Shown: positions 38,560 through 64,000 of the stretch, in pieces
Position numbering within the stretch: the first letter of the stretch is position 1
Layout of the letters: every line of letters starts with the position of its first letter
From: Triatoma infestans
Taxonomy: Eukaryota; Arthropoda; Insecta; Hemiptera; Reduviidae
DNA: 64,000 nucleotides
NCBI GenBank assembly: GCA_011037195.1
Contig: JAAEAF010003344.1
Location: 190,974-254,973 of the forward strand
Reading direction: 5' to 3'
Notes under the pieces: model-generated
Database searches by the model: none
What the model was told of the DNA's origin: nothing
The model's input: the letters and a program-made list of their open reading frames with translations, nothing else
Position numbers and translations under genes: made by a program

Positions 38560-38792
38560 TAAACCAAAAGTGATAGATCTCTGCATGTATGGTTAGTAAA
38601 CTAAGTTTAATGAAACTCTTTTGTGTCTTTATGGTAAAATTTGCTAAAAAATTGATAAAAGTATTCAGTTGTACTAAAAGTCAGTAAAGTTGTGCGTACT
38701 TCCGGTTAACCAATTTTCTTCAAAAACAAGTAATTTTGGCATCACATTTTATTGTAATTAAAATTATATAAACGATACAATGATACGTATGT
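38560..38792 (-). repeat. Family A fragment, left part of an interrupted copy
   Basis: ACTTCCGG at 38698-38705, then CCAATTTTCTTCAAAAAC and AATTTTGGCATCACATTT. It appears to continue after the two insertions at about 40100 (ATTTCGGAGGAAAATATAAT). Confidence 0.6.
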
Positions 38793-38794
38793 AT

Positions 38795-38937
38795 AAACTA
38801 AATTTGCTCTGTGTAAGTCTGTTTGTTATCATACTGTTTTGACAAAAACATCATTTTGTTACCGGATGGGCGAACGCCCGAAACCGGTCAGTGATCACAA
38901 AAAGAAGCAGGCTATCACGGAAAATATCTCTGATGAA
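38795..38937 (+). mobile_element. Half copy of the hammerhead element, family 1
   Basis: A single unit in plus orientation: TTTGCTCTGTGTAAGTCTG, TTTTGACAAAAACATCA, a damaged CTGATGA position, then GGGCGAACGCCC, GAAAC, CGGTC and the downstream AAAAAGAAGCAGGCTATCAC, AAAATATCTCTGATG. The second arm is absent. A pogo-like element begins six bases further on. Confidence 0.7.
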
Positions 38938-48667: not shown

Positions 48668-48725
48668 AATGGGTTATTTAACATCAGAGATATTTTCCGT
48701 GATAGCCTGCTTCTTTTTGTGGTTT

Positions 48726-48763
48726 CATCGACCGGTTTCGGGCGATCGCCCATCATCAGGATG
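48726..48763 (-). ncRNA. Candidate hammerhead ribozyme (intact core)
   Basis: On the minus strand: CATC (stem I 5' side), CTGATGA, an extra T, stem-loop II GGGC-GATC-GCCC, GAAA, then C-CG-G as a minimal stem III, TC, and GATG (stem I 3' side, pairing with CATC). All invariant core positions (CTGANGA, GAAA, NUH with H=C) are present; the predicted cut is after GGTC. The very short stem III is known from Penelope-like and retrozyme hammerheads, which are thought to act as dimers. Confidence 0.7.
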
Positions 48764-48896
48764 TTTTTGTCAAACAGTGTAATAACGCAGCCTTCCACAG
48801 AGCAAATTCAGTTGATACACTCAACAATACAATCAGTTGAGTGTGTATCAACTGAATTCGCTCTGTGGCAAGTCTGTATTATTACACTGACAAAAA

Positions 48897-48934
48897 CATG
48901 CTGATGATGGGTGATCGCCCCAAGCCGGTCGATG
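48897..48934 (+). ncRNA. Damaged hammerhead core, right arm
   Basis: CTGATGA is intact (48901-48907) and stem II has a G-U-compatible change (GGGT-GATC-GCCC), but the GAAA box reads CAAG, which should abolish cleavage. CGGTCGATGA follows as in the left arm. Confidence 0.6.
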
Positions 48935-49020
48935 ACCACAAAAAGAAGCAAGCTATCATGGAAAATATCTCTGATGCTTTCCATCTCTGCGGAACCAACC
49001 ACAACAATAATGGGTTATTT

Positions 49021-52310: not shown

Positions 52311-52441
52311 GTACAATAATTTTATTTCGGGAGGGTATTGTATTACCTTAATAATAATTTACTAATTTGTTGTGGTGGTTGGTTCCGCAGAGCTGGAAAG
52401 CATCTGAGACATTTTCTGTGGTAGCCTGCTTCATTTGTGGT

Positions 52442-52478
52442 CATCGACCGTTTCGGGCGTTCGCCCATCTTCAGGATG
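52442..52478 (-). ncRNA. Candidate hammerhead core, left arm (stem III base lost)
   Basis: CATC, CTGAAGA, T, GGGC-GAAC-GCCC, GAAAC, GGTC, GATG. It lacks one C between GAAAC and GGTC compared with the right arm, so stem III is further reduced. Confidence 0.6.
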
Positions 52479-52632
52479 CGTTTTTCAGACAGTGTGGCAA
52501 CAAAGACTTGCGCAGAGCAAATTCAGTTTTACACACTGACTGGTGTTTTTAACTTTATTTAAACTTGAGTTAGCTCTGTTTTAACTGAATTAGCTCTGTG
52601 CAAGTCTGCGTTGCCACACTGTCTGAAAAACG

Positions 52633-52670
52633 CATCCTGAAGATGGGCGAACGCCCGAAACCGGTCGATG
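52633..52670 (+). ncRNA. Candidate hammerhead ribozyme (intact core)
   Basis: CATC, CTGAAGA, T, GGGC-GAAC-GCCC, GAAA, C-CG-G, TC, then GATG pairing with the first CATC. CTGAAGA fits CTGANGA with N=A. Stem II is four perfect G-C pairs with a GAAC loop. The predicted cut is after GGTC at 52666. Confidence 0.72.
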
Positions 52671-52723
52671 ACCACAAAATGAAGCAGGCTACCACGGAAA
52701 ATGTCTCTGATATTTACTAATTT

Positions 52724-54374: not shown

Positions 54375-55627
54375 AGTCTACCTATTAGAATTTAGAATTA
54401 GAATGATGCAGGGGGGGGACTAAGACCCAGACACTGCAGCCTCCCATTGAGGCTTATTGTGCCAACCCCTCAAACCTAGTAGTGGAAGCCCTCCCTCTTC
54501 ATGAGGTCCAAAAGCTTCCCCACCAGTCCCTCCTGGAGCACGATTACCTCCGGTCTCAACGTGCCGAAGATCTCGTACCTCAGTCTGCCGATTGCAACGC
54601 AATCAAACAACAGGTGAGATGCCGTTTCCTCCTCCTCCTGACACAGTCTGCACAAGGGCTCTACATCCACCAACCCCACCTTGTGTAGATGTTTTTTGAA
54701 CCTGCCATGCCTAGTAAACAGGCCCGTTATCAGAGAAATCTGATACCTGCTTAGACCCAGGATGTATCTGGTCCTTCTTTCACACAGCTCAGGCATGACC
54801 ATTTTGCCGTGCTTCGCCCCAGTACTCAGCCTCCAGTATCGGTTATGTTCCCTCCGAGTCCAGTTTCTCAGAGCAGCTCTCACCATACTTTTGGCCACCC
54901 CTAGAGCAGGTTCCGGCCCAGGGAAGGGAGTATTCGCTCCCTCCCTGGCCAGTTGGTCGGCTATTTCATTTCCCATGATCCCCTTATGCCCCGGCACCCA
55001 TACTAGCCGCACTTTGTTGTGCCGGGATAATGCCTCCAGGGAGTCTCTACACTCCCTGACCAAAGGGGAGGTGATTCTGAACGCCCGAAGAGCGTTCAGC
55101 GCAGCCTGGCTGTCCGAGAAGATGCATATCTCTCTATTTCTAGAGTCCATACGCAGGTTCTCCTCAGCACAGATCTTTATTGCATAAACTTCAGCCTGGA
55201 ACACTGTGGAGTAACCACCGAGAGGCCTCGCAATACGTACCTCCGGCTTGACCCCATAAATCCCGGCTCCAGTTCCGCAGGCCATTTTGGACCCATCCGT
55301 AAACCAGGATCCCCCAATCCGGCCCCGTTTCTCCCAGCTTTTAGCCCACTCCGACCGTGACGTTACTATCACTTGGAAGGGGAGCTCAAAGTGGAATGTT
55401 GGACAACTCACATCCCCAGCCATCCTAAGGATAGGGCCAGGGTCTACCTTCTGAATAATGCCCAAGTGCTTGGCTAGGGAGCTTCTATACTTCCATTGGC
55501 CATTGTTCATTAGTCTGTAAGCACTGGCCCTCGCCTCCGCCTGTATCAAAAGATGAAGAGGAGGCAACCCCAGCAGAACCTCTAATGTAGTCGTTGGGGC
55601 ACTACAAAACGCCCAGTCTACTTATTA
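54375..55627 (-). mobile_element. 5'-truncated non-LTR retrotransposon with 13-bp target duplication
   Basis: AGTCTACCTATTA (54375-54387) and AGTCTACTTATTA (55615-55627) flank the copy and differ at one base. The minus-strand 3' end is a short UTR after the stop (GAGGGGTTGGCACAATAAGC ...) ending in TTCTAATTCTAAATTCTAA. The 5' end cuts into the RT thumb region. It is the best preserved non-LTR copy in the window and probably the youngest. Confidence 0.8.
54476..55614 (-). CDS. Non-LTR retrotransposon ORF2 C-terminus: RNase H and CCHC finger
   Basis: One uninterrupted frame runs from the truncation point to the stop. The first residues (about LEVLLGLPPLHLLIQAEARA) are the end of the RT region. 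An RNase H domain follows with all four acidic residues: TDGS, QAEVYAIKI, FSDSQAALNAL and GNEIADQLA (residues 91, 126, 152 and 204 counting from 55567), plus the VWVPGHKG block. After LSRYQISLITGLFTRHGRFK comes the finger CRLCQEEEETASHLLFDC (C-x2-C-x8-H-x4-C). It would degrade RNA in the RNA:DNA hybrid during target-primed reverse transcription, but without RT the copy is not autonomous. The intact frame implies recent insertion. The clade is among those with RNase H (I/LOA/Outcast-like). Confidence 0.85.
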
Positions 55628-57337: not shown

Positions 57338-57348
57338 CCTCCCTCCTC
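57338..57348 (-). other. Polypurine tract
   Basis: GAGGAGGGAGG on the minus strand, directly before the LTR start, is the expected plus-strand primer of reverse transcription. It overlaps the last env codons. Confidence 0.7.
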
Positions 57349-58942
57349 AAGTTTGGAGCTCCTGCGACAATTGGCACGGAAGTCCAGGGTAGATATGTCG
57401 AGGTGTGGGTTGTAGTTGGTCTCCTTCTGTTGCGCCCGGATTCGCCTTCTTTCTACAGACATAGTAAACATACAAAGGGGGCAACAGGAGTAGAAGTATT
57501 GGAATGATAATAAAATAGTAGAGATGTGCCGAGTCCCTGGGTGTTTCCTCTAGTAACTCCAGTGGTTCCATCTTTAGGTTGATTTTGTGCAGATTTTCAA
57601 AAGATATGTTTATGTTGGTGTGAGTGAACACTTGTGTAGTTGTCACTATGCCTTTGGAATCCTTGTATATGGGTATGGCTTTGCTGTCTAGTAGAGTTTC
57701 GTCTTTGTTTAATTTTATGAGGCTAGTGTTGGTCAAGAATATAGTGTCATTATGGTTGTCTTTTCTTATTACAATTCTATTGGTCCTGAAAGTTAAAAAG
57801 TGGTCCACAAAAGGGATGTATTTGATAAATGGTGCACTTGATGTGTATACCGTCTTGCATGCTACGGGGTTGATGTTGGTGATGAGTTGGCGAAAACAAT
57901 CGTTTTGGATGCTGGTTTTGTTGCGGCAGTACATAGCGCTGTTGATTTCCTCACAGGTGGCTGTAAATAACTCATCTTGGATTTTTAGGATCAAAGGTGG
58001 ATGGACATGAATTGTGAGGAGGTGGTTGTCTCTCTCTATAGGATAGGATAAGAGGAAGTACGTCTCAAAGGAAGGGGTTTTTGGGGGAACGCTAATAAAA
58101 TAGTAGACGTTCCAATTTTTTATTGAGCAGTGTACCCTGCTTAATTGCCAAAGTGCTTCTATGTCAGGGGTTATGAAGCTTACATTGTGAGATCGTTGTA
58201 GTGACTCAAGATCTTTGAGAAGAAAGATGCTAGAATGGATAGTGTTTAATCTACAGAATTCTAGAGAGTTTTCCATGTCGTCAATTTTGTTTGCGATAAG
58301 GACCAGGTTAAAGAGGATAGAATTGAATTGCTGATTTAGCTCAATCTGGCTAACTACAGGGTTGGAGAAGAAGGTTGTCATTTTGTCATTGTTGGTTCGT
58401 ATAATCTGTATATCGTGATTGAACTCTTCAATTACTCGCCTGTTTATTGCCATTTGGGTTTTTAGGTTATTTTGGAGGTGAAAACTGTTTCGTTCAATAG
58501 TGTTAATAACTTTGTCGTATCGTTCCTTGTCGTCACTGTCCATGTTTCCGGTTAACCAGGAAATGGCTTTGCCTAGGCCATTAATGAGTCCCCGTTTAGG
58601 TCTGGATTTGTTAAGGGTTAAATGGTCTAACTTATTACGAAGGTAATAATAATATTTAAAGAGTGATTTTATTTGGTTCGTCTTGTTGAGTTGGTACGTG
58701 GTGCTGATAACGGTAAAAGTCTTATCTAATTCTATGTCAATTAATTGCACGTCAGCGATATGTATAAACGTATAGTATCTATCTAGGACGTAAGCTGGGC
58801 GGAAGGCAATAGGCAACATTCCAGAGCCGGATGTGAAGTCTGTTATCTCTAAGGTGGTGGTTAGATTACTCATTGCTATCAGTTGCAATATGTGCAGGAT
58901 TGCTAGGTTCCCCATTGTCAGCGATTGTGATATGTGCATCAT
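57347..58942 (-). CDS. env: Errantivirus-type envelope protein (baculovirus F-like)
   Basis: A 531-codon open frame with the layout of a class I fusion protein: a hydrophobic N-terminal stretch (residues about 11-25), a basic RPKR furin-type site at residues 114-117 (58592-58603), a Gly-rich hydrophobic segment right after it (GLINGLGKAISWL), a long helical region with heptad-like Leu/Ile/Asn spacing, a Cys-containing ectodomain, a transmembrane segment at about residues 475-495 and a 36-residue cytoplasmic tail. N-glycosylation sequons are frequent. Env of this group is normally made from a spliced RNA; the frame overlaps the end of pol by 77 bp and ends at the polypurine tract. It is open throughout, unlike pol. 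Whether the protein works cannot be judged here. The plus-strand frame 57624-58010 is a shadow. Confidence 0.85.
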   Translation of the reverse strand: MMHISQSLTMGNLAILHILQLIAMSNLTTTLEITDFTSGSGMLPIAFRPAYVLDRYYTFIHIADVQLIDIELDKTFTVISTTYQLNKTNQIKSLFKYYYYLRNKLDHLTLNKSRPKRGLINGLGKAISWLTGNMDSDDKERYDKVINTIERNSFHLQNNLKTQMAINRRVIEEFNHDIQIIRTNNDKMTTFFSNPVVSQIELNQQFNSILFNLVLIANKIDDMENSLEFCRLNTIHSSIFLLKDLESLQRSHNVSFITPDIEALWQLSRVHCSIKNWNVYYFISVPPKTPSFETYFLLSYPIERDNHLLTIHVHPPLILKIQDELFTATCEEINSAMYCRNKTSIQNDCFRQLITNINPVACKTVYTSSAPFIKYIPFVDHFLTFRTNRIVIRKDNHNDTIFLTNTSLIKLNKDETLLDSKAIPIYKDSKGIVTTTQVFTHTNINISFENLHKINLKMEPLELLEETPRDSAHLYYFIIIPILLLLLPPLYVYYVCRKKANPGATEGDQLQPTPRHIYPGLPCQLSQELQT

Positions 58943-59610
58943 TGCTTGCCCCTGCGTCTGTAACAGAGATAAGTTGCTGTGTGAATTTTCTCGGTCTTTT
59001 TAATAGATTAGGATGCACATTAAAAGATTTCCTCTGAGTGGTTACTAATTTAGTTTTTTGAGAATAGTTTCCCCTTTTAAATTTTGGCTTGGCTTTGCCA
59101 TATTGTTTGTCTCGTATGTAAATTTCGCCTTCCGGAATTTCGATATTTTCTCTGGTCTGGTTTAGTCTATTAGTCCGTGTTTCTTTTTCTTTTTCGATAA
59201 TTTCTTTAATAGCGCGGGCTACCAATTCCCTGTCTTCATGGTATTCTTTAACTTTCTGTTCTAAAACCAGGTCTTGCGCGTAAGTGGTAGTTTGTATTCC
59301 GAAGGTGATGTCGTTTGGTGCCATTTTGAGGTTAGAAACTATGGCGTTGTTGTAGGCTATTAGTCCTAGTCTTAGAATTTTATTGAGGGTGTAGTCTTTT
59401 CCGTGTTTGATTATATTTAGAATTTCAATTAGTGTTGAATGGGCTCGGTTTATTAGTCCGTTGGAGTCTGAATGGTTTGGGGTAGTAAAGTGGGTGTCTA
59501 TGTTATTGTATTTTAGAAAGTTTTCAACTAGTCCGTTTTTAAATTCTGTTCCGTTGTCAAATTGAATTGTCTTAGGGCAAGGGAATAGAATAGATAGTGT
59601 TCTAAGGAAG
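58866..59610 (-). pseudogene. pol: Pol, integrase second half (after a frame break)
   Basis: The frame is open from about 59610 to the stop at 58866, so the first Met (59324) is not its start. It begins with the integrase second catalytic Asp block (FDNGTEF), then FTTPNHSDSNG, where the residue usually Glu (the G-x-x-E position) reads Asn, followed by HSTLIEIL. Later it has MAPNDITFGIQTT, typical of gypsy-type integrases, and a basic C-terminal tail (GKAKPKFKRG, LLKRPRKF). It overlaps env. Integrase inserts the cDNA; a missing catalytic Glu plus the frame break argues that this copy cannot. Confidence 0.75.
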
Positions 59611-61543
59611 TGACGATTTCGTGGGCAGAGGAGGTTCTAATTGGATAACCGTATAGTTTTTTGGAGAAACAGTCAATGAGTGTAAAGATTTGCTTCCCGT
59701 TGTAGTGTAGTATGTCGCCTTGTAGTCTCTCGAAAGGTTTGGAAGGAGTAGGGGTAATTTCATAAATTTGTCGTATCGGTCTACGCTCGTATTTTACCTC
59801 CTTACAAAGGGAACAGTTGTTGATTACTTTTGTTATCTGTTCTAGCATTTTTGGCCAGTAGTAACGTTTAGTTAGGGTTCTGTACACTTCATGTATACCA
59901 CGGTGTGCGGTTTTGCCGACATGATAATTTTGAATAGTTTCTTCTTGTTCCGAGGAGTCTGTTATGTCTAGTCTTTTGGTGTAGTAGCGTTTGAGTTTGA
60001 CTGTTGGAAATTTGTCTTTTATTATGTTGGACAGGTGAACAAAGATTTGGTCATATATCTGTTCGTCAATGGAGTTTTCTATAGGAGGTGAGCACAGGAC
60101 GCCGTACGTATGGTTCGGTTGTAAGTACTCTAGGCAGTATTCGTCTATGTCGTTAGAGTATGGGTACCTGGTGTACCAGTTGTACCGTGTTTTGTTAAAC
60201 GGTCTGTCGATTGGAATTTTCGTCTCGGGGTTGCCTCGGGTTAGAACAATTTTGAATTTTTCCACGTTAATGCAGCGTGTTTTGTCGTCAATTATTTTAA
60301 TTTGGCTGTTAGAGGATTCTTGGGAGTGTTGCGTTTGTAGGCTTTCATTGTCGTCTTCGGCAGTAATGTTTTCATTGTCGTCTTCGGCGGTAATGTTTAG
60401 GGCTCTGGCTAAGTCTTCTAGGATGTCGTCACTATTCTCAGGTGAAGGGGCCGAGAGGAATTCGTCCAGGACTTCGTCTGGATTTGGACTTGGGGACGAG
60501 GTCTCTAGGGCATTTAGGTCTTTTTCTTCTGGCGGGTTTCGTGATAGTGCGTCTGCTACTACGTTAGTCTTTCCCTGTACGTACTTGACGTCAAAGTCAA
60601 AGTCAGCTAATTGTAATTTCCATCGGATGAGTTTAGCGTTTGGCTCTTTTAAGTTGTGTAACCATTGTAATGGTCTGTGGTCTGTCTGTATTGTAAATTT
60701 GCGTCCGTAAATGTATGGTCTAAAGTGTTTGCAGGCCCAAACTATGGCCAGTAGTTCTTTTTCTATAGTGGAGTAATTCTCCTCCTGTCTATTTAGTGTG
60801 CGAGAGGCAAAGGAAATAGGGAGGTCTTTTCCGTCTATGTTCTGGGATAGGACGGCTCCGATAGCATAATTGGAGGCGTCTGTTGTGAGGATAAAGGGTT
60901 TCTCGAAGTTAGGCAGTTGCAGGATGGGACTATTCTGTAGGAGGGATTTCAACGTCTCAAAGGCTTGTTTATAGCTGTCGTCAATTATGATGTCTTTGTC
61001 TTTTCTTAGTGAGAGGGTTAGAGGTCTGGCTATCTTGGCATAGTTTTTGATCATTTTTCGGTAGTAGCCTGTAAGTCCGAGAAATTGTTTGATTTGTTTC
61101 TGTGTCTTGGGAAGTGGAAATTTAGCAATAGCGTCTAGTTTTGCCGGGTTAGGTTGTATGCCTTTGTCGGAGATGATGTGTCCTAAAAAGAGAAGTTCGC
61201 GTTTGAAGAATTCCGTCTTGTCAAGCTGAATTTTTAGATTATGTTGCCTAAGTTTGTCAAAGACCGTCTTGAGGTGTTTTATGTGCTCTTCCAAGCTGTC
61301 CGAAAAAATGATAATGTCGTCCATGTATACTAGTACGTTAGGGATCCTAGAAAAGATGGAATTCATCGCCCTTTGCAAAGTGGGGGGGGGGGCGTTCTTA
61401 AGACCGAAGGGCATGCGTAGGAATTCGTAGTGTCCGTTTTCAGTGGAGAATGCTGTCTTGGGGACTGATTCGGGGTCCATCTCGATTTGATGGAACCCTG
61501 ACGCTAAGTCGATCGCGGAGAAGTAAGTCGCGCGTCCTATTTA
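59528..61543 (-). pseudogene. pol: Pol: RT palm, RNase H and integrase first half
   Basis: The frame is open from about 61543. It has RT blocks MPFGLKNAP, VLVYMDDIIIFS (catalytic YMDD near 61320) and FLGHIISDKG. Then the RNase H: LTTDASNYAIGAVLSQ, YSTIEKELLAIVWA and QTDHRPLQWL, with YVQGKTNVVADALSRNP at the end. An acidic spacer contains a 9-residue tandem duplication (ITAEDDNEN/ITAEDDNES). The integrase part has H-x-G-I-H..., NNCSLCKEVKYERRP (zinc-binding) and GDILHYNGKQIFTLID (first catalytic Asp). It then breaks frame near 59610. A run of eleven G at 61382-61392 (plus strand) falls in the RT fingers (NAPPPT), where an insertion or assembly error is possible. Confidence 0.85.
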
Positions 61544-62195
61544 CCGAATAAGTCTTCATTATTAGGAAGGGGGAATTTGTCTTCGACTGTCTTGTTATTA
61601 AGTTTGCGGTAGTCTATAACCATTCGTATTTTCTTTTTACCTGAGGCGTCTGGTTTTTTTGGTACTACCCAAATTGGGCTGTTATAGGGGGAGTTAGAAT
61701 GTTGTATTACTTTGTTTTCCAGTAGTTTGTCAATTTCCGTTTGTACGTCTTTTCGATAGATTTCCGGGTATCTATAGTTTCGAGTGTAAACTGGGTTTTC
61801 GTCAGTGGTTCGAATTTTATGTTTCAGTAAATCGGTACAGCTTAGTCTGTCGTGCTCTCTTTTAATTATTTGGGGGTAGTTTCTTACTAATTCTATTATT
61901 TTATTTTTCTCGTCTGAGTTCATGTGCTCCGTTCTAATTAACCTAGGGACTTCCTTTTTTATTTCTCTTAATCTAGTATCGTCAGACATTTCGGGACAAT
62001 TGGTCACTACTACGTCTGGTATATTTATGCTAATTTCCTGTGGTTCGTCGATATCCATAGGTTCGGGGCAAATGGCCATGACTTCCTTGGATTCAACTTC
62101 GCACAAGATTTTATTATTCCTAATGCTATAAAGGCCTTCTTTTATTGTGACCTTATCGTTTATTTCTATATTCTGATTAATTAATCCGTTTTTAA
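61537..62195 (-). pseudogene. pol: Pol: RT N-terminal part, between two frame breaks
   Basis: Open from about 62195 to a stop at 61537. It reads linker sequence (GLYSIRNNKILCEVE), then RT fingers: YRYPEIYRKDVQTEIDKLL, SPYNSPIWVVPKKPDASGK and RMVIDYRKLNNKT. The frame ends early in the palm, at LPNNEDLFGK; the next RT block continues in another phase at about 61543. The first Met (62106) is internal. RT copies genomic RNA to cDNA in the particle. Confidence 0.8.
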
Positions 62196-62690
62196 TTCTT
62201 TATTTTTTACCGGAAGTTCTATAAAATTAACTCCCTGTTCTAATTTTATTACGTTTAAGTTATTTTCAGGGATATCAAGTGTAAATTTTAAGGGGATTAT
62301 ACCCTGAGGGTAAGAAAGGATGTTCTTATTTAAGTCTATGCTCATTCCTAGTGCCTGCATAGTTTTGTGTCCTAAGAGTATGTCGTATTTGTCAGAAAAG
62401 GGGAATACATGGAATTTAGTTTCTAAGTTTACGTGAAATGTGTCTTGTATGCTGAGGGTGCAAGATTGTTCTCCATTCTTCTTTCCAGCGGGTGTAGTTA
62501 TTATGAATGGGTCGTTGGATAGTGTTATGTCAGTCGGGACAACGTTGGGATTTATGTAGTTTTCCGCTGATCCGGTCTCGATGAGCCAATTCAGTCCGTA
62601 TCTGTCCTCAAAGTGTGGGAGAGACTTGTCTACTAGGTTTAGGTTGAATTCGGGAGGCCTTCTTGGCTCCCGTGGCCAACGTCTAAAAAA
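62181..62690 (-). pseudogene. pol: Pol: aspartic protease region
   Basis: In the -1 frame relative to gag, open from the slippery site to a stop at 62181. LIETGSAENYI sits where retroviral proteases have LIDTGS/A, so the catalytic Asp reads Glu. DILLGHKTMQALGMSI, a normal flap-to-C-terminal protease block, follows. A frame break at about 62185-62195 separates it from RT. The protease would mature Gag and Pol by cleavage; the Asp-to-Glu change would be expected to impair it, if it is not an individual mutation or a sequencing error. Confidence 0.7.
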
Positions 62691-63943
62691 TGATCGAACT
62701 TTTCAGTTATTTTGTCTAGTGAGTTCTCTAAGCGGGAAAGTCTGTTTTCGTAAGCTTTGTCTGGTTCAGAGTACTTTTCAGGTTGCTCGTCATTTTGGCA
62801 ATGCGTCAGTTCGTGAGGAGAAATGTAATCTTTGAACCTGGGTCTGCCTGCAGTACGCATAGACACCGTATTTTGGGAAAAGTAACCAGGAGGTAATCTG
62901 GGTCGATTAAAAGGATGGTTAGGGTTATTCGGGTTATTGGGATTGTTTGGATTTATAGATTGTCCAAAATTTGATCGTTGAGGTTGTTGCAGTTGTGGTT
63001 GCGGTTGTTGTCGGTAAAGAGAAGTTTGAGGTCTTTGTTCCATAGGCCTGGGATTATATTCAATTGGTTGGTACTGGTAGTTAGGGGTCTGATTCATTGG
63101 GACGTATTGTGGATTCGGTCTATAAGAGTATTGGGTATTCGGTCTGTAAGGCTGCTGGTATTGGTTTGGTTTCCGAAATGGTTGGTTGGGCCTCTTAGGA
63201 CCGTGAGAGGAGTTTAAATTAGCTACAATGAACGAACATTTGTTGTAGATAATGTTTCGTATCTCGTCTAGTGTGCTAGGATCAAAAATCATAATGTGGT
63301 TGCTTAATGTCGGGGGCAGGCATTTATAGATGTGGAAGATTATTTCCCGGTCGACTCGGGTTATTAATTGTTTCAGGGCGTCTGCTGTGAGTCCGTCTAG
63401 TTTTAGTCTAATATAAACTAAATTTCGCAACTCCTGTACCCTATTGACGAAGTCAATGGGAGACTCTCTAGCATGCATTTTAGTTTGTAGGATTTCATCT
63501 TTGAGGATCTCGTAAGATCTCGAGTCAGCGAAACTCTCTTTCAAGTATTTTAATAAATTTAATAAATGGTCCACGTTATGTGAAAGAAGTATATTTCTAG
63601 CGGGCCCTAGCAGTCTACTCTTAACTTTTATAAAAAGGATGTTGTGGTTGTAATCTCGTTCAATTATATTTTCTGCGCAGACTGTGGCGAAAGCACTTTC
63701 GACAATCTCGCAGAAGAACGCTAGCTCGGAAGGGTTTCCGTCAAAGTAGGGGATGTGGTCATAGTCTTCTTTGGAGATTTTGTAATTTATTTGGGCCATT
63801 TCAGGGATAGTTTCTTTGGGGAGAACTAGTTTAGAGGGTTTAAGGACAGATGAGCTACTTACAGTTTTTAAGCGTTGTTGTTGGCTCGCCAGCTTATCGT
63901 CTGAGGATGTTCCGGGTTCCTGTAGGTTGAGTACTGCGAACAA
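62639..63943 (-). CDS. gag: Errantivirus Gag polyprotein
   Basis: A 434-codon intact frame. The middle (residues about 60-230) is the capsid region of gypsy-like Gag: YDHIPYFDGNPSELAFFCEI, HNVDHLLNLLKYLKESF, ILQTKMHARESPIDFVNRVQ and KQLITRVDREIIFHIYKCLP. The C-terminal third is a Pro/Gln/Asn/Arg-rich nucleocapsid-like region (QYQQPYRPN, NPNNPNNPNNPNHPFNRPR) without a CCHC knuckle, as is usual in errantiviruses. It ends in a short helical segment LSRLENSLDKITEKFDHFL. Gag forms the particle and binds RNA. It carries the frameshift site for Pol at its 3' end. The start ATG at 63943 leaves room upstream for the leader. The plus-strand frames here are shadows. Confidence 0.85.
   Translation of the reverse strand: MFAVLNLQEPGTSSDDKLASQQQRLKTVSSSSVLKPSKLVLPKETIPEMAQINYKISKEDYDHIPYFDGNPSELAFFCEIVESAFATVCAENIIERDYNHNILFIKVKSRLLGPARNILLSHNVDHLLNLLKYLKESFADSRSYEILKDEILQTKMHARESPIDFVNRVQELRNLVYIRLKLDGLTADALKQLITRVDREIIFHIYKCLPPTLSNHIMIFDPSTLDEIRNIIYNKCSFIVANLNSSHGPKRPNQPFRKPNQYQQPYRPNTQYSYRPNPQYVPMNQTPNYQYQPIEYNPRPMEQRPQTSLYRQQPQPQLQQPQRSNFGQSINPNNPNNPNNPNHPFNRPRLPPGYFSQNTVSMRTAGRPRFKDYISPHELTHCQNDEQPEKYSEPDKAYENRLSRLENSLDKITEKFDHFLDVGHGSQEGLPNST
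62684..62690 (-). promoter_or_regulatory. Programmed -1 frameshift site (gag-pol)
   Basis: TTTTTTA on the minus strand is in the phase T TTT TTA of gag (codons CAT TTT TTA), the canonical X XXY YYZ heptamer. Eleven bases later CGGGAG..CTCCCG (with CC/GG extending it) can form a hairpin. The -1 frame is open across the junction and gag stops 45 bp downstream. Confidence 0.8.
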
Positions 63944-64000
63944 GCCATTGATGTGGGAGCTTCAAGTTTTCCTTGGATTTGGTGAGACAAATGGTCGCAC
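63944..64000 (-). other. Start of the errantivirus leader
   Basis: The 57 bp between gag and the window edge should be part of the untranslated leader. The primer-binding site and 5' LTR lie beyond the edge. Confidence 0.5.

Follow-up and report, generated by a model that had tools for sequence, protein, structure and literature searches.

A head-to-head pair of pLTR-like units in Triatoma infestans that looks like an ORF-less insertion derived from Penelope-like elements

The window analysed here, a stretch of 64,000 nucleotides of the Triatoma infestans genome, holds between two perfect copies of the 12-bp AATGGGTTATTT a palindrome whose arms carry hammerhead ribozyme motifs, and it raises the question of what kind of element leaves two such units facing each other at one target site. 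An earlier note, made from the letters alone, described an inverted dimer with a 12-bp duplication and a hammerhead core in each unit, and took it for a non-autonomous Penelope-type or retrozyme-like element. Minimal type I hammerheads of Penelope-like elements (PLEs) were reportedly treated by Cervera and de la Pena in 2014 and by Lunse in 2017. Here we describe the palindrome and its relatives in the 941-Mb assembly that contains the window, to which the genome searches were applied, and weigh the ways in which it could have arisen.

The palindrome and its perfect duplication are borne out by a self-comparison (85% identity, 305 columns) and by inverted arm pairs I1 (48716-48772/48888-48944) and I2 (48682-48723/48935-48976), together with I3 and I4, all lying between the AATGGGTTATTT copies. 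In left-to-right order, an inverted unit is followed by a short centre, a direct unit and a 32-nt A/C-rich tail (Table 1). No RT or GIY-YIG match lies between its two pLTRs, and tblastn with P0001 gave no match within the 64-kb window.

Table 1. The palindrome at 48668-49020 and related copies of its unit in the window
Feature	Position	Strand	Remark
Left target-site duplication AATGGGTTATTT	48668..48679	+	Perfect match to right copy
Inverted pLTR-like unit, tail-less	48682..48829	-	Outer end CTCTGATG, the short end point
Minimal type I hammerhead motif, core intact	48726..48763	-	Predicted cut after GGTC
Direct pLTR-like unit	48831..48976	+	Self-match and inverted-arm pairing
Degenerate hammerhead	48897..48934	+	GAAA -> CAAG, one stem I mismatch
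AC-rich 32-nt tail, one side only	48977..49008	+	Ending AACCAACCACAACAAT
Right target-site duplication AATGGGTTATTT	49009..49020	+	Perfect match to left copy
Second dimer c2	52357..52723	-	Same anatomy as the palindrome
Single unit c3, tail-less	38778..38935	+	Hammerhead core damaged

The left-arm motif reads CATC CTGATGA T GGGCGATCGCCC GAAA CCGGTC GATG on the minus strand, with a stem I of 4 bp, a stem II of 4 bp (5 bp if a G-to-T or T-A pair is counted, as in our scan), an almost absent stem III and an extra T after A9. The minus-strand core that the earlier note had pieced together from CTGATGA, stem II, GAAA, GGTC and the CATC/GATG stem I is thus present, and the claim of a core in each unit holds for this arm but fails for the right one, where CATG CTGATGA TGGGTGATCGCCC CAAG CCGGTC GATG has lost GAAA and the stem I pair adjoining the core is mismatched. 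The bare pattern CTGATGA..GAAA is commonplace, occurring at least twice in 31 of 100 shuffles. A structured scan (CTGANGA, stem II of at least 4 bp, GAAA, UH, stem I of at least 3 bp) found three sites in the 64-kb window, namely the left arm of the palindrome and both arms of c2, against a mean of 0.015 sites in shuffled windows, any site being present in 2 of 200. Pattern scans gave 0 matches in viral contigs; the one match in genome contigs, from a Bacteroidia MAG, we take as chance, with no palindrome in the surrounding 251 bases.

The dimer c2 has its own perfect 12-bp duplication (52357-52368/52712-52723), a tail at 52369-52400 and intact hammerhead cores in both arms (52633-52670 on the plus strand, 52442-52478 on the minus strand), and the single unit c3 is flanked by the 7-bp repeat AACGATA (38771, 38936). 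In the genome at large, the unit is present in thousands of copies at least: its outer-end 18-mer has 6,864 exact occurrences (reversed control, 0), a 34-residue reading of it gives 62,581 unverified candidates, and the top 40 matches scored, from 7,922 first-look candidates, are dimers some 330 bp long. The first 100 places listed for the 18-mer include 13 close neighbour pairs (<700 bp), 12 of them head-to-head, none tail-to-tail and one direct, the members of the last lying 652 bp apart. At one further place (L117, C9:24780-25600) the direct arm of a dimer is interrupted by about 150 bp of other DNA.

Two samples of dimers were compared. One, of 39, was picked by similarity to the query and comprises 41 matches less two duplicates: L030, identical to L029, and L040, whose printed ends are those of L014 and for which the test of identity over 100-bp flanks came out false. 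The other was drawn from the first 100 places listed for the 18-mer and consists of the 12 pairs there that stand head-to-head; 74 of the 100 places, which have no close intact partner, are not part of it. In the 39 similarity-chosen dimers, left ends start near ATCAG and right ends close in the AC-rich tail. A flanking direct repeat of at least 7 bp is found in 26 of them, as against 4.7% of mismatched flank pairs, and one of at least 9 bp in 14, as against 0.13%; with a wider search range, a perfect repeat, 8-14 bp long and 75% A+T, flanks 23 of the 39. Among the 12 dimers, 8 have a flanking repeat of at least 8 bp, the flank control having been run for the 39-dimer sample only. In 11 of these 12, the outer end falls at unit position 140-142 in one arm and at 169-173 in its partner, so that there are two fixed outer end points, 31-32 nt apart; the tail is on one side only in 11 of 12 and on both sides in the remaining dimer (L124).

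The inner junctions show no such regularity. The centres of the 39 dimers measure 2-33 bp and differ between copies, and in the 12 dimers the inner ends span unit positions 1-123, all 12 inner-end pairs are different, and the markers lie 148 to 426 bp apart. The arms do not fall into a left and a right lineage: between copies, identity is 85.5% for left with left, 86.3% for right with right and 85.5% for left with right, and the majority base differs between sides in 3 of 148 columns (one of them at the outer edge and two at the inner). Arms belonging to the same copy are 87.6% identical and have rare variants in common more often than expected (25 vs 4.9; 0 of 20,000 permutations), and the sharing of rare variants between copies is equally low in all combinations (left-left 0.14, right-right 0.13, left-right 0.11). 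At subfamily site 15, own arms agree in 38 of 38 cases, at site 130 in 37 of 39, and at three further sites in 34/37, 31/36 and 35/39; concordance was absent at a CpG site (23/37, p = 1) and at one inner-edge site (p = 0.08). The nearest of the 77 other arms is the arm's own partner in just 7 of 78 cases (median rank 16), and the within-copy signal is therefore real but small. Since the junctions are new, left and right lineages are lacking and the arms of a copy share marks, each palindrome was probably formed individually at insertion, between two fixed outer end points.

The structure of the unit links it to PLEs of the same genome. GIY-YIG matches over the cut-off occupy at least 38 genome places (150 of 1,157 candidates scored). 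One intact PLE locus (L080, C1030:7500-11500) has an 809-aa frame with RT and GIY-YIG, the RT at 29.0 bits falling just below the Pfam cut-off of 29.6 and GIY-YIG lying above its own; its ORF has at least 56 matches in the genome (56 of 7,025 scored). The locus contains two direct pLTRs, an inverted 5' pLTR that lacks a tail of roughly 38 nt, and, by visual reading, a low-complexity flanking repeat of 13 bp. Its hammerhead is GGTA CTGAGGA A GATTATGAAATATAATC GAAA CGTT TACC, and its pLTR differs from the window unit's. Three more hammerheads of the window design were found, two beside PLE coding sequence (L093, L105) and one, L055 (D), placed by a GIY-YIG match only. The four PLE-adjacent motifs, which accompany coding sequence of four kinds of PLE, and the window units have in common one extra base after A9 and a near-absent stem III. 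When these four, picked by core letters and not by pairing, were aligned with two window motifs, 98% of 50 cells in stems I and II were paired and 8 of 10 pairs had changed on both sides; covariation was 0.640 vs 0.204 in shuffled alignments (0 of 500 shuffles), and further pair types numbered 10 vs 7.3 (34 of 500 shuffles).

The window palindrome therefore has a minimal type I hammerhead in its pLTR that covaries with those of other PLEs and, like L080, the PLE anatomy of a tail-less inverted pLTR, a direct pLTR with a 30-40-nt tail and a short target duplication. An RT and GIY-YIG ORF of its own is lacking, and because this RT ORF is a defining feature of PLEs we file it as a PLE-derived insertion and not as a PLE: it looks like an ORF-less insertion in which an inverted pLTR abuts a direct pLTR with its tail. 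The kind is already known, and the palindrome is a useful record of PLE integration. The description as Penelope-type and non-autonomous is in this respect well supported: the design of the hammerhead, the anatomy of inverted pLTR plus tail and the shortness of the target duplications all speak for it. A palindrome of 96% identity at another locus (L059, 540-870) has, in both orientations, the hammerhead of a third PLE family, so the window unit may not be alone in forming bare inverted pairs.

The search with Rfam has to be read in this light. It gave no hammerhead family match above the gathering score on the palindrome, the best score (HH10) being 21.1 bits of the 75 required and spanning the wrong stretch; its other matches there are microRNA-like chance matches to the long hairpin. 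The earlier note had named a missing covariance match, together with a lack of cleavage, as grounds for abandoning its reading, but at gathering scores Rfam equally finds nothing on five loci of the same genome with PLE coding sequence and hammerheads, so its silence on the palindrome says little; the Rfam hammerhead models at these scores overlook the PLE ribozyme design seen here.

The majority sequence of the 78 arms of the 39 dimers has an intact hammerhead core, which individual arms keep in 52 of 78 cases by pattern and, judged more strictly by the structured scan, in 24 of 78. Core bases are 97.6% conserved, as compared with 91.7% on the 5' side of the motif and 94.7% on the 3' side, a difference so mild that we do not count it as proof of function. 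A transcript of the whole palindrome is predicted to fold at -214 kcal/mol (-71 for shuffles), and since it would form one long hairpin the ribozyme is unlikely to act on the dimer. The hammerhead would instead be inherited from the pLTR RNA and any activity it has is probably directed at the source transcript. An ATG inside the hammerhead opens a 34-codon frame, which may mark where a lost PLE ORF began; as 27% of shuffles keep such a frame open, it is by itself no evidence. Counted from this ATG, the predicted cut falls at +24 and the end points at +70 and at +87 to +102.

A PLE whose ORF carries the window pLTR was not found among the fetched GIY-YIG and L080-ORF loci, and this missing source counts against a PLE explanation, to the extent that each genome search scored part of the repeats. 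Only one fetched PLE-match place (L068/L090, the same place) matches the window unit. There (L068/L090; L079, C6861:8000-12500) a unit dimer is separated by ~260 bp of unrelated DNA from a truncated RT-EN ORF of another PLE family that lies downstream of it. We rejected this dimer as a missing link, its direct unit stopping at GGAAAAT before unrelated DNA begins. Among 150 scored of the 62,581 unit-peptide candidates no frame exceeds 228 aa, and three long-frame places matching the unit peptide proved, when opened, all to be dimers.

Taking these observations together, we regard a bare inverted pLTR pair of PLE origin, joined anew at insertion, as the best explanation and a highly probable one. 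More tentatively, and with rather less than even confidence, we propose that most unit copies are born head-to-head, one PLE complex copying the same RNA from both sides of the break with two fixed starts. From the observed anatomy, recurrence, outer ends, junctions, duplications, lack of arm lineages and shared marks we infer the enzymes and the order of steps as follows. PLE enzymes acting in trans would make a staggered cut in AT-rich DNA; RT on the unit RNA would use the AC-rich site as its start at one side of the break and a second site, 31-32 nt upstream, at the other; both cDNAs would end at variable 5' stops, and joining of their free ends would yield the palindrome.

A close biochemical parallel is PAc, the Poseidon element of Anolis carolinensis, whose protein cleaves and extends both DNA strands at AT-rich targets (PMC11167929). 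Its ATG lies in the hammerhead (A9-U-G), cleavage occurs 26 nt after the ATG, the RT start lies at +111 to +118, within an AC-rich stem-loop, or else upstream of the tail, and the hammerhead is inactive without the protein (PMC11167929). The window unit resembles it in the position of the ATG, in the distance to the predicted cut (+24), in an AC-rich end at +87 to +102, in a tail that corresponds to the interval between two RT starts, and in AT-rich targets; it differs in that no linked RT ORF was found. The start site of PAc is, moreover, no different between strands (PMC11167929), whereas the two ends of a dimer here nearly always use different starts, which leaves the one-tail rule (11 of 12 dimers) without explanation and counts against the proposed model. 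If the model is true, thousands of independent junctions would document in vivo the bilateral target-primed reverse transcription that until now has been observed only in vitro, for PAc (PMC11167929), and the unit, a bare pLTR, would parasitize PLE enzymes in the manner of a SINE, at very high abundance.

The main rival to such two-sided synthesis is self-priming, put forward for rotifer Penelopes in the portions of PMC3846280 available to us, in which a single cDNA, started at the AC-rich tail, loops back on its 3' end and serves as its own template for the second arm. It would account for the subfamily marks common to both arms; the fold-back point allows unequal inner ends, and palindromes would be expected often, as the authors argue in those portions (PMC3846280). 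Under this scheme, however, the second arm should reach the outer end of the first, tail included, or be trimmed at random, and instead, in 11 of 12 dimers, it comes to an end at unit position 140-142, where the single unit c3 ends as well. This fixed end speaks against self-priming, which we consider unlikely. A family of palindromes copied as dimers, another way of reading a recurrent inverted dimer, might be suggested by the 39 best matches, which are alike in length and have the same ends, but these were picked by similarity to the query and their centres still differ; left arms resemble one another no more than they resemble right arms, and the spread of marker spacing in the 12 dimers picked otherwise goes against a fixed dimer. 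With junctions differing between copies in both samples there is no fixed unit, and we find this reading very improbable.

The retrozyme half of the earlier description, in which a small circular hammerhead RNA is inserted as direct tandem repeats, fares no better. A type I hammerhead, a non-autonomous habit and a unit size within the 170-400 nt given for animal retrozymes in the portions consulted of PMC7229834 would all fit, but units hardly ever neighbour each other in direct tandem (1 of 13 close pairs, the other 12 being head-to-head), and the unit ends at points like RT starts and not at the ribozyme cut. We give this origin even less credence than a fixed palindromic family. A fold-back DNA transposon or MITE with long terminal inverted repeats would agree with the inverted arms, target duplication and high copy number; the arms, however, fall short of one end by the 32-nt one-sided tail, so that they are not terminal repeats, the duplications vary from 8 to 14 bp (23 of 39 dimers with a perfect repeat of at least 8 bp), the centre is new each time, the single unit c3 exists and the ends match PLE ends. 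Such a transposon is the least probable origin of those considered.

The explanation by a bare pLTR pair agrees with what is described of the Adineta vaga Penelopes Pen2 and Pen3a in the portions of PMC3846280 at hand: a shorter inverted 5' pLTR, an optional 31-bp tail on one pLTR, target duplications of 8-10 bp in the cases quoted, and head-to-head palindromes, in all of which the window palindrome is similar. The same portions state that the pLTR includes the first ORF codons, and the copies they describe hold an ORF or captured host sequence between the pLTRs, whereas the window pLTRs abut directly and the copy number of the window unit is far above that of the Adineta vaga Penelopes (PMC3846280). 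Whether the inverted pLTR and tail of PLEs originate by self-priming or by synthesis from both ends is testable by counting bare pairs here. Minimal type I hammerheads are dispersed in thousands in metazoan genomes, some in PLE pLTRs, according to the sections of PMC7761336 accessible to us; the window motif shares with these the near-absent helix III and the thousands of dispersed copies, and differs in that its head-to-head arrangement never places two ribozymes on one strand of a dimer. No family of bare inverted pLTRs appeared in the literature searched, the main hammerhead-PLE papers lying outside it, and we make no claim of first description.

Other mobile elements occupy the same window. 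A Gypsy-like retroelement lies in several frames at 57347-63961 on the minus strand, with Pfam matches to RT, RNase H and integrase domains in 59528-61540 and a 550-aa frame at 57347-58999 that has no Pfam match. On the same strand, a 381-aa frame at 54476-55621 with an RNase H match and a weak zf-RVT match is probably the end of a non-LTR retrotransposon.
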